Part shown: in pieces, positions 4,348 through 13,860 of the stretch
Position numbering within the stretch: position 1 is the stretch's first letter
Layout: the number at the start of each line of letters is the position of its first letter
DNA from: an uncultured Cytophagales bacterium
GTDB lineage: Bacteria > Bacteroidota > Bacteroidia > Cytophagales > Thermonemataceae
Direction: 5' to 3'
NCBI GenBank assembly: GCA_938002655.1
Contig: CALLAC010000015.1
Span: forward strand, 1-53,205
Length of the DNA: 53,205 nt
Notes under the pieces: generated by a model
The model's database searches: none
Told to the model about the DNA's origin: nothing
What the model saw: only the letters and a program-made list of their open reading frames with translations
Program-made: the position numbers and the translations under genes

Positions 4348-4420
<73 letters not shown>

Positions 4421-11464: not shown

Positions 11465-11497
11465 AAACCTATGAGGTTTTTTAAACCTCATAGGTTT
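11465..11497. repeat. Palindromic repeat, copy 2, between convergent genes
   Basis: Perfect 15-base inverted arms (11465-11479 and 11483-11497) with a TTT loop, identical in arm sequence to the copy at 283-315. It lies between the converging ends of gcvH and the TonB receptor, where a strong hairpin flanked by A and T runs would stop transcription from both sides. Confidence 0.85.
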
Positions 11498-11509: not shown

Positions 11510-13669
11510 CTACAATCTTATTGCTATATTCAACAGAAAATTTGTGCCCGCTTGTGGATAATAATAGTTTTCCCAAGCTCTTTCCCCTCTTGTAATATAG
11601 CTGAACGTATAACCATTGGGTTCGTAGAGTTCGTTGAAGATATTATTCACCAAAAGCCCAACTTGCAGTTGTTTGAGCCCTTTTACAGGTAAGATATAAG
11701 CCAAACGCAAATCGTTCACAAAAAAGGCGTTGAGTTTTCGTTGTTCGTTTTGTGTATTATCCAGGTACTGCTTGCCAACATATTTGGAAAGAAACCCTAT
11801 TTCAAACTCATTGATAGGCTTAAATGTAAGTTGAGAAGCGGCAATCAGACGAGGAGAAAATGAAATATCTACGTTCTGATATGTTATAGCAACTTGGGTA
11901 TTATTATCGTAATCATCTACGTATTCAGTAAATTCAGGAATTTTATTCTGACTTACAGTTAAATTTGCTTGCCAAAGTAGCTTTTTCGTAAGTTGCCAAT
12001 TACCTTCTAGCTCTACTCCCATTCGCCGACTGCGAGGTACATTGGTACGAATATATGCCCCAACATCATTCACTTGCCCTGTTAGTACAAGCTCATTCGT
12101 ATAATCCATTAAGAATGTATTTACTTTGAAATTTGCTTTGCTCCAAGCAACCGAATACCCAAGTTCTAGATTGTTAAGTCTTTCTGCTTTAGGACGACTT
12201 GCCGGCGTAGAATTTACAAAATCTTTGCGATTAGGCTCACGATGAGCAATGCCCCACAAAGCATACACTCTGTTTTTTCCCCAAGAAAAATCTGCTCCCG
12301 CTTTGGGATTGAAAAAGTGTAACTCAATTTCTTGTTGTGTATTTTGCAAGTTTTGGTCAAAACCTAAAAAGTTGTAGCCGATGTAGCGGTACTGTGCGTC
12401 GGCAAAGGCAGAAAGTTTTCCTGTACCTATATTCCATTCATTTGCTACTTTTAGAAACTGATTAAAATCTACTTTAATGCCATCATTATCGTAGTATCGG
12501 TAGCGAATGGGGATATTTTTAGAAATTTCTGCCCAAATAATTTCGCCAAAATGCTTACCAAAATAACGGTTCCAACCGCCGCCCAATGTAAAATTCCAAG
12601 ATTTTTGTGTATAGTCTATGGAATATATTCCGCCGTAGAAGTCGTTATCTAACCAACGCCTGCGAATAAGGTCGGTTCGCTGGATAACAGTATTTCCGAT
12701 AACTACATCAGGCAAACCATAGCGAGAGAATCGGTCTTTCTCTCTAAATTCTTCATAATATCCGAAACCTTTTACATAGAAAAGCGAAACATTCGCTTTA
12801 AGTTTTTCATTAAACTGATGGTCTAGAATAGCTTGATAATGATTTTGGTTGTAGTTATCTACTTGGTTATCGTAGGTATAGAAATTGAAGCGTCTATTTT
12901 CTTTGAGGATATCTTCACGTATGCCATACCAAGCCTGATAGGTACGTTCTCTGCCTTGCAAAGTAAGCAAGCGAAGTGTAGTTTTTTTACCATAATAGCC
13001 AGCTGAAAGATACACTCCCAAAAGGTCGGAAAAGGCTCTTTCGATAAATCCGTCAGAAGTAATTTTGGAAAGGCGAGCATCTACCACAAAGCCATTTTTC
13101 ATTTTGCCTGTGGAGGCTTGCAAGGTATGTTTCCAGGTGTTAAAACTTCCCCACGAATGGTTGAGTTCGGCAAAAGGCTCGTTGGTAGGTTCGGCAAAAG
13201 TCTGTACATTCAGACTTGCTCCAAATGCACCTGCTCCATTAGTTGAAGTACCTACGCCTCTTTGCAAGGAAATGGTTTGTGCCGAAGAGGCAAGGTCAGG
13301 CAAATCAACCCAGAACACTCCATGCGATTCGGGGTCATTGAGCGGAATACCATTGATAGTAGTATTGATACGCGTAGCATCAGAGCCACGAACGCGTATA
13401 CCTGTGTAGCCAATTCCTGCTCCGGCGTCAGAATATACGACTACCGAAGGGGTGAAATTGAGCAAGAAAGGTAAATCTTGCCCATAGTTGCGTTTTTCAA
13501 GGTCTGCTTTTTTGAGTGTAGAACGGGTCAGCTCTGTGATGTAAGGAATACCCGTAACAGTTACAGCTTCAATTTCTTTTTCTTGAAGCAAAGAATCTAC
13601 GCTTCCTTGTGCCAAAGCTAGGCAAGGCACCAGCAAGCCCGCTGAAAGGCTTAAAACATGGCGTTTCAT
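11510..13669 (-). CDS. TonB-dependent outer-membrane receptor, predicted thiamine/TPP uptake
   Basis: A 719-residue receptor from the ATG at 13669. A signal peptide (MKRHVLSLSAGLLVPCLALAQ) is followed by a TonB-box-like segment (EIEAVTVTG), a plug domain with GIRVRGSDATRINTTINGIP and LQRGVGTSTNGAGAFGASLN, then a long 22-strand-type barrel region ending in LLNIAIRL. The substrate is predicted from regulation: a TPP riboswitch with its own promoter and terminator directly precedes the gene. TPP-riboswitch-linked receptors of Bacteroidota are known candidates for thiamine import. An alternative in-frame start at 13711 would lie inside the terminator hairpin and is rejected. No other thiamine genes are near. 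Confidence 0.9.
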   Translation of the reverse strand: MKRHVLSLSAGLLVPCLALAQGSVDSLLQEKEIEAVTVTGIPYITELTRSTLKKADLEKRNYGQDLPFLLNFTPSVVVYSDAGAGIGYTGIRVRGSDATRINTTINGIPLNDPESHGVFWVDLPDLASSAQTISLQRGVGTSTNGAGAFGASLNVQTFAEPTNEPFAELNHSWGSFNTWKHTLQASTGKMKNGFVVDARLSKITSDGFIERAFSDLLGVYLSAGYYGKKTTLRLLTLQGRERTYQAWYGIREDILKENRRFNFYTYDNQVDNYNQNHYQAILDHQFNEKLKANVSLFYVKGFGYYEEFREKDRFSRYGLPDVVIGNTVIQRTDLIRRRWLDNDFYGGIYSIDYTQKSWNFTLGGGWNRYFGKHFGEIIWAEISKNIPIRYRYYDNDGIKVDFNQFLKVANEWNIGTGKLSAFADAQYRYIGYNFLGFDQNLQNTQQEIELHFFNPKAGADFSWGKNRVYALWGIAHREPNRKDFVNSTPASRPKAERLNNLELGYSVAWSKANFKVNTFLMDYTNELVLTGQVNDVGAYIRTNVPRSRRMGVELEGNWQLTKKLLWQANLTVSQNKIPEFTEYVDDYDNNTQVAITYQNVDISFSPRLIAASQLTFKPINEFEIGFLSKYVGKQYLDNTQNEQRKLNAFFVNDLRLAYILPVKGLKQLQVGLLVNNIFNELYEPNGYTFSYITRGERAWENYYYPQAGTNFLLNIAIRL

Positions 13670-13691
13670 TGATAAATTGTGATTTGAAAAG

Positions 13692-13723
13692 TGAAACAAA
13701 AGGAGCTTCAAGGGGGTAGCTCC
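13692..13723 (-). terminator. Riboswitch expression-platform terminator
   Basis: On the minus strand GGAGCT (13723-13718) and AGCTCC (13707-13702) form a six-pair stem with a ten-base loop, followed by TTTTGTTT. It lies just downstream of the TPP aptamer and upstream of the receptor start, as expected for ligand-dependent premature termination. Confidence 0.65.
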
Positions 13724-13734
13724 ACCTGCTTCTT

Positions 13735-13820
13735 ACCTTAACTCCCTGCGGCAGCATTACCTGCATCAGGTTCAAAGGGTATGTTCTCAGCCCGTTGTAT
13801 TAAGGCACCCCTGTTTCGGA
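13735..13820 (-). promoter_or_regulatory. TPP riboswitch (THI element)
   Basis: The minus strand carries the conserved TPP aptamer blocks in order: GGGGTGCC, GGGCTGAGA (13793-13785), ACCC, GAACCTGAT (13773-13765), GGTAATGC (13761-13754) and CAGGGA (13748-13743). The outer stem can close with AAC/GTT and CC/GG. In this class CTGAGA binds the pyrimidine ring and the GAACC..GGTAATG arm binds the pyrophosphate with magnesium. Bound TPP should favour the terminator downstream and turn off the TonB receptor. Confidence 0.95.
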
Positions 13821-13830
13821 AAATTTTGTG

Positions 13831-13860
13831 CAAAATTACAATTTTTTCAATTGCTTCAAA
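13831..13860 (-). promoter_or_regulatory. Promoter for the riboswitch/TonB receptor transcript
   Basis: On the minus strand TTTG (13860-13857), 18 bases, then TAATTTTG (13838-13831). Transcription is predicted to begin a few bases before the first conserved block of the TPP aptamer, which independently supports both calls. Confidence 0.65.

Follow-up and report, generated by a model that had tools for sequence, protein, structure and literature searches.

A predicted vitamin B1 receptor under a TPP riboswitch and a candidate salvage route to thiamine pyrophosphate in a Raineya-like Cytophagales bacterium

Introduction

TonB-dependent outer-membrane receptors whose genes lie behind a thiamine pyrophosphate (TPP) riboswitch have been described under two names. 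One is OMthi (BT2390) of Bacteroides thetaiotaomicron, to which the relevant parts of the published report assign a role in growth at low thiamine on genetic grounds: the half-maximal effective concentration (EC50) of thiamine rose from 2.8 to 15.8 nM when a biosynthesis mutant also lost OMthi (PMC5613172). According to the same parts of that report, most gut Bacteroidetes have OMthi, pnuT, and tnr3 in one operon in addition to biosynthesis, PnuT carries thiamine, and TPP riboswitches in front of TonB-dependent receptors of Bacteroidetes had been predicted earlier (as cited in PMC5613172). The other is Omr1 (omr), a receptor regulated by THI elements, whose gene was described under a TPP riboswitch in metagenomes in a section of one survey (PMC2211319) and was counted among the B1 uptake genes, with its specificity marked unclear, in a section of a Baltic Sea survey (PMC12442306).

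Here we analyze a receptor gene of this kind in a stretch of 53,205 nucleotides (the window), which is contig 15 (CALLAC010000015.1) of the genome of an uncultured Cytophagales bacterium (GCA_938002655.1; 2.64 Mb, 44 contigs, 97.5% complete). On the minus strand of the window, a promoter, a TPP aptamer, a hairpin, and the gene of a TonB-dependent receptor follow one another (Table 1). The receptor is 80% identical to its counterpart in Raineya orbicola, a member of the Bacteroidetes described from a hot spring in Portugal as slightly thermophilic (PMC5982127). We consider it about 85% probable that the window organism is a thiamine-auxotrophic, Raineya-like Cytophagales bacterium that takes up thiamine or a thiamine phosphate through this riboswitch-controlled receptor. 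After entry, the likely route would lead through a PnuC-family permease, a candidate AAA_28 kinase, and ThiL.

Table 1. Features of the receptor locus in the window.
Feature	Position	Strand	Remarks
Terminator-like inverted repeat	11465..11497	.	15 pairs and T-runs; lies where the receptor and gcvH genes converge
TonB-dependent outer-membrane receptor, OMthi/Omr1 type	11510..13669	-	719 aa; ATG at 13669, stop ends at 11510; PF07715, PF14905
T-rich tail TTTTGTTTCA	13692..13701	-	Points to a terminator; the tails of the three other genus genomes are T-rich with interruptions
Expression-platform block GGTGGAGCTACCCCCTTGAAGCTCC	13702..13726	-	Stem 13723-13718 / 13707-13702, loop ACCCCCTTGA; 25/25 identical in 4/4 genus genomes
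TPP riboswitch aptamer, full length, no P3a	13726..13822	-	RF00059, 67.8 bits, and covariation
Aptamer segment GGGGTGCCTT (P2/P3 5' strands)	13802..13811	-	Possible switching strand (by inference); can pair with 13722-13713
Promoter	13831..13860	-	Pattern match: -33 TTTG (13860-13857), -7 TAATTTTG (13838-13831), spacer 18

Results

The TPP riboswitch

The aptamer matched the Rfam TPP family over model positions 1–105 with an E-value of 2.9e-11, its score lying above the gathering score of 54.3 bits. It is the only TPP aptamer match in the window and also the only TPP riboswitch found in the whole genome. Three further genomes fall in the same genus as the window organism, giving four genus genomes in all (labels such as G002 denote genomes below). 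In a MAFFT alignment of 11 aptamers (that of the window, five from the three genus genomes, and five from other loci), to which the RF00059 structure was applied, 12 of the 23 pairs showed changes on both sides and 84.9% of the cells were paired, exceeding every slid control. The RF00059 score and the covariation confirm that the TPP riboswitch upstream of the receptor gene is real, as a preliminary description of this DNA had claimed, and binding of TPP is predicted from them. The window aptamer has the same sequence and pairing as RF00059 over its full length but differs in its expression platform, a hairpin with a C-rich loop. Such a platform was not met in the small part of the TPP riboswitch literature that was surveyed, which is no proof of its being unpublished.

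The association of aptamer and receptor was also found beyond the genus. Of 129 confirmed relatives, the best 80 loci were kept for counting, and a TPP aptamer was found upstream of the receptor gene in 77 of them, using a model built from the 11 aptamers, to which seven of the 77 loci (L002, L005, L006, L010, L023, L034, and L043) had themselves contributed. At the three loci lacking it (L033, L055, and L074), the contig starts at or near the receptor gene; many locus flanks are cut by contig ends. Tandem matches to the TPP aptamer, each of 28–35 bits, precede the receptor gene at L008 (2269–2464), L009 (343–538), and L014 (5507–5681), two of the three being Daejeonella. L069, a record labelled as a Streptomyces griseus metagenome-assembled genome, has a Bacteroidota-type receptor with a TPP aptamer, and its label is probably wrong.

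The receptor

The plug and barrel families were both above cut-off in the translated product, in agreement with the TonB receptor of the preliminary description. The plug pattern was seen in 41 of 81 receptors, the window's included; 32 of the other 40 carry an N-terminal extension ahead of it, of about 70 residues or more, that the window receptor lacks (open reading frame (ORF) starts having been set mechanically). In an AlphaFold model of the receptor (pLDDT 84, from an alignment of 28 sequences), the closest solved folds among the matches listed were PqqU/YncD, FecA, FoxA, and BtuB. The closest of these was PqqU/YncD of Escherichia coli (Foldseek E 1.9e-35; VIA Z 35.6, rmsd (root-mean-square deviation) 3.0, 624 residues aligned); it was solved with pyrroloquinoline quinone (PQQ) and is only 14–15% identical to the window receptor. 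Thiamine receptors were absent from the best 50 matches in either fold comparison, which excludes nothing. A PDB sequence search with the receptor gave weak matches of the C-terminal barrel to CntO/FoxA (E 4e-4 to 6e-4) and nothing stronger.

By its plug and barrel and its upstream TPP riboswitch, the window receptor belongs to the known OMthi/Omr1 kind, BT2390 having been compared by description only. Omr1 is known from survey data and is likewise likened to the window receptor by description, not by sequence; its prediction reportedly originated with Rodionov et al. in 2002 (cited in PMC5613172 and PMC2258182). Whereas the gut operons combine the receptor with pnuT and tnr3, the window receptor gene stands alone in a genome in which ThiC, ThiE, and thiamine pyrophosphokinase (TPK) were not found and ThiL is retained. 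We regard the absence of pnuT and tnr3 beside the gene, the background with ThiL alone, and the platform with its C-rich loop as differences of setting, not as marks of a new kind of receptor. An order of receptor, PnuC-family gene, and TPK, as in the OMthi-pnuT-tnr3 arrangement of Bacteroides, was seen at L060, L064, and L074, whose receptors are 43–45% identical to that of the window.

The promoter and the expression platform

The sequence TTTG-N18-TAATTTTG fits the -33/-7 promoter form of Bacteroidota. With 13 occurrences of this two-part pattern in the window, compared to 4.15 ± 1.80 in shuffled sequences, a single match proves little on its own. A TAnnTTTG box ending at most 30 nt 5' of the aptamer was found in 49 of 75 leaders, compared to a mean of 2.7 and a maximum of 7 in dinucleotide shuffles; the leaders were those of the window, G002, and 73 of the 77 aptamer-bearing loci, four loci with fewer than 60 upstream bases being omitted. 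The recurrence of the box, which agrees with the promoter proposed in the preliminary description, indicates that the riboswitch mostly begins its own transcript. The box is present even at L018, where a gene sits immediately upstream.

The hairpin GGAGCT-ACCCCCTTGA-AGCTCC lies directly downstream of the aptamer. The platform block containing it is unchanged throughout the genus, while the aptamers of G002 and the window agree at 75 of 92 aligned positions, and their receptors are 72% identical. The same description had called this structure a terminator; the hairpin itself stands, with its identical stem, while the terminator role is plausible and unproven, the T-run being interrupted in the three other genus genomes. 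The tail of the window, TTTTGTTT, has seven T in eight bases, and those of the three other genomes (TATTGTTTCA, TATGGTTTTA, and GGTGTTTCAT) are T-rich but do not keep the uninterrupted TTTT of the window. A 46-nt segment with the hairpin folds with -13.2 kcal/mol (z -2.18), a stability equalled in 5 of 200 shuffles. In a simple terminator scan, the window hairpin was absent from the results with loops of up to 8 nt; with loops of up to 12 nt, it and those of the three other genus genomes scored as terminator-like.

The two properties of the hairpin were then counted under the same loop limits in 79 leaders (window, G002, and the 77 loci). Hairpins with CCCC at the loop were found in 21 leaders and terminator-like hairpins (loops of 3–12 nt) in 16; over 60 rounds of dinucleotide shuffling, the corresponding figures were 0.1 ± 0.4 and 2.4 ± 1.6. 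Twelve of the 21 C4-loop leaders are also terminator-like, all four genus genomes among them. Under unequal loop limits (4–12 nt for the C4 loop and 3–8 nt for the terminator), the counts were 23 and 9 of 78 leaders, compared to 0.7 and 1.9 in shuffles. The C-loop platform thus recurs but is not universal, CCCC being absent from the 100 nt examined in 44 of 78 leaders; furthermore, the C4-loop hairpin of L025 is possibly unrelated.

Transcription attenuation, in which the hairpin would serve as a genuine intrinsic terminator, falls just short of an even chance in our estimate. The T-rich tail of the window, a fold stabler than most shuffles, and the excess of terminator-like hairpins speak for attenuation, whereas the loss of the uninterrupted T-run within the genus and the 63 of 79 leaders that have no terminator-like signal speak against it. 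So do two literature results, as far as the available parts of the papers go: the OMthi operon transcript of B. thetaiotaomicron did not respond significantly to thiamine (PMC5613172), and none of the six transcriptionally active TPP riboswitches, of 57, reported with TaRTLEt is from Bacteroides (PMC12121620). Costliow and Degnan saw no significant response of the transport operons to thiamine, and they called the mechanism in Bacteroidetes uncertain (PMC5613172). A terminator is therefore possible, and we rate termination and translational control by the hairpin nearly even.

A switching strand can be proposed within the aptamer. The segment GGGGTGCCTT can pair with GAGCTACCCC (13722–13713), which includes part of the hairpin, at 9 of 10 positions, with one C–C mismatch. 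This pairing would disrupt both P2/P3 and the hairpin, so that a simple switch is conceivable. Equilibrium folding was rejected as proof of switching: the free optimum was -44.4 kcal/mol, the enforced native aptamer -38.5 kcal/mol, and the enforced switching helix, which is not favoured, -34.6 kcal/mol, and these energies exclude that of TPP binding and the co-transcriptional order. In the mechanism we propose, the riboswitch's own promoter would make a short leader, and the receptor would be made when TPP is scarce. Once TPP is bound to the aptamer, P2/P3 would be locked and the C-loop hairpin could form some 30 nt ahead of the start codon, lowering expression.

Thiamine genes in the genome

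No match to ThiC, ThiE/TenI, or TPK was found in the genome of the window organism. This lack of matches suggests that the window organism is probably a thiamine auxotroph; R. orbicola requires yeast extract or a vitamin mix. No thiamine transporter or kinase adjoins the receptor gene, which is flanked by genes of an alpha/beta hydrolase and gldA on one side and by gcvH and a ribose-phosphate diphosphokinase gene on the other. The preliminary description had likewise seen no inner-membrane partner next to the receptor and had placed the partners elsewhere, and candidates were indeed found on three other contigs: one PnuC-family protein (C7:166249), one ThiL above cut-off (C1:117322, 311 bits), and one AAA_28 protein (C5:29255). 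The direct neighbours of these three genes, judged by eye, are unrelated to thiamine. A ThiK-like kinase of the APH family was rejected as a further candidate, the single strong APH match in the genome being a fructosamine kinase (PF03881, 260.9 bits); two weak APH matches lie in frames of 448 and 592 aa.

ThiL requires thiamine monophosphate (TMP). This substrate could come from outside, if the receptor imported TMP or TPP and not free thiamine; ThiL would then add the last phosphate, and no thiamine kinase would be needed. The retention of ThiL without a match to ThiE or TPK fits this idea, as does the small cofactor PQQ in the best fold match, PqqU, though fold similarity at 14–15% identity says little about the substrate. 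We consider import of the phosphates unlikely: PnuT carries thiamine (PMC5613172), and no inner-membrane transporter of thiamine phosphates was identified, no search aimed at one having been made.

A candidate thiamine kinase

We tentatively propose, at somewhat less than even odds, that in Bacteroidota without thiamine synthesis and TPK the missing thiamine kinase may be the stand-alone AAA_28 protein. Thiamine would pass the riboswitch-controlled receptor and the PnuC-family permease, AAA_28 would make TMP, and ThiL would make TPP; the riboswitch would act through the C-loop hairpin competing with the GGGG of the aptamer, ending transcription or blocking translation. In 39 genomes, TPK gave no match in 36, the window organism's included, and ThiL was above cut-off in 37. 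The two genomes without ThiL above cut-off (G009 and G029), both without strong AAA_28, were set aside. AAA_28 was present in all 24 ThiL genomes that lack both strong ThiE and TPK, compared to 6 of the 13 with either (Fisher 1.7e-4); AAA_28 was counted from at least 84 bits and strong ThiE from at least 160 bits, these thresholds having been fixed after the scores were seen, and kinship is uncorrected. The search for ThiC covered the window organism's genome only. Among the 80 loci, AAA_28 lies upstream of the receptor gene on the same strand in 20, preceded by a PnuC-family gene in 17 of these (a 20-bit AAA_28 match at L058, on the opposite strand, being excluded), while TPK lies downstream in three and never together with AAA_28.

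A competing explanation is that PnuC and AAA_28 serve the salvage of nicotinamide riboside (NR) and that their nearness to the receptor gene is incidental. NCBIfam names the PnuC protein of the window organism an NR transporter (74.3 bits, cut-off 42.45), and the closest PDB match of AAA_28 is NadR (1lw7, E 1.1e-15). In addition, the riboswitch is mostly preceded by a promoter box of its own, so that an upstream pair of PnuC and AAA_28 need not be under TPP control. The alternation of AAA_28 with TPK at the receptor loci and the 24 of 24 genomes argue against NR salvage, with the kinship uncorrected and the nicotinamide adenine dinucleotide (NAD) genes outside the survey. We regard NR salvage as a serious possibility, somewhat below an even chance.

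The protein itself is a stand-alone ORF of 190 aa, most of which is spanned by the AAA_28 domain, and it does not show the hallmark of NadR, fusion of the kinase domain to a nicotinamide mononucleotide (NMN) adenylyltransferase domain. In a tree of 47 domains, it falls in a clade of 27 (support 99/98) together with 15 of the 24 receptor-linked rows, and the NadR fusions L125 and L133 lie apart from this clade. In place of the D-G-L-R-S-L of H. influenzae NadR, many stand-alone AAA_28 proteins, judged by eye, have D-P-L/Q-R-E-H/N/Q-P or D-x-L-R-D-R-P. An AlphaFold model of the AAA_28 protein alone was unusable (pLDDT 39). In the limited set of partly available literature that was searched, a stand-alone AAA_28 or NadR-like kinase was nowhere linked with thiamine.

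Besides the NCBIfam name of PnuC, several findings weigh against AAA_28 as the thiamine kinase or weaken the case for it. The 20 AAA_28-linked loci include kin (six of one Lutibacter-type cluster, four of Flammeovirgaceae type, and three of Pedobacter) and are not 20 independent events. With laxer definitions of ThiE, the AAA_28 counts became 22 of 22 versus 8 of 15, and 20 of 20 versus 10 of 17. The clade of the window organism's protein does not take in nine of the 24 receptor-linked rows; the AAA_28 of L011, where the receptor frame is broken in two, groups with the NadR fusions (85/80) and has a NadR-like lid motif. Finally, the protein encoded downstream at L008 and L014 is 34–36% identical by BLAST to the TPK of L100 (G017); that of L014 had no Pfam match, its L008 counterpart being outside the Pfam scan.

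Further observations

The receptor and gcvH genes, which converge, likely share the inverted repeat between them as a terminator. A tRNA gene (4348–4420, plus strand) is the only other Rfam match in the window above its gathering score. A ThiE-like gene lies directly behind the receptor gene at L018 (8175–8810, PF02581, 134 bits) and at L014 (8104–8739, by sequence likeness).

A second TPP riboswitch heads a set of genes for an S-adenosylmethionine (SAM) methyltransferase, a ThiL/SelD-like AIRS protein, a ThiE-like protein, and a Trm112-like zinc ribbon. The set is whole on one contig of G017 (L116, 9260–6382, minus strand) and split over two contig ends in G001 (L088, 4006–5972, and L114, 81–1031) and likewise in G003 (L089, 6795–7703, and L115, 229–1131), where the AIRS gene was not seen. 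The Trm112-like gene was scanned in G017 and read by eye in G001 and G003. The set was not found in the genome of the window organism.

Discussion

The aptamer at 77 of 80 loci, its place as the sole TPP riboswitch of the genome, the lack of matches to ThiC, ThiE, and TPK, and the precedent of OMthi led us to conclude that the receptor very probably admits vitamin B1 across the outer membrane. Import of thiamine, TPP, or a thiamine-containing complex, as predicted in the preliminary description, is thereby supported, the choice between thiamine and TMP or TPP being a matter of inference. The same holds for ligand binding, the direction of control, and the mode of action of the hairpin, be it on transcription or on translation.

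Several points weigh against the overall interpretation. The receptor system of the window organism is known from sequence alone, so that binding, transport, and expression are predictions. The biosynthesis negative does not extend to ThiD, ThiG, ThiM, and TenA, which were not searched, and comes from a genome that is 97.5% complete. Rfam's own cut-off was reached in 6 of 10 loci scanned and missed by the other 4, and the weakest leaders (L008, L014, and L063) score 30–31 bits with the 11-aptamer model. In B. thetaiotaomicron, deletion of OMthi alone left growth unaffected, and thiamine did not significantly alter the level of the OMthi transcript (PMC5613172).

The receptor would extend the known route of vitamin B1 uptake to hot-spring Cytophagales. 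In 24 of the 39 Cytophagales genomes examined, ThiL is kept with neither a strong match to TMP synthase nor TPK, which leaves the route from the imported vitamin to TPP unexplained. AAA_28, which is present in all 24 of these genomes and often lies beside the receptor gene, makes the question of the missing kinase testable.

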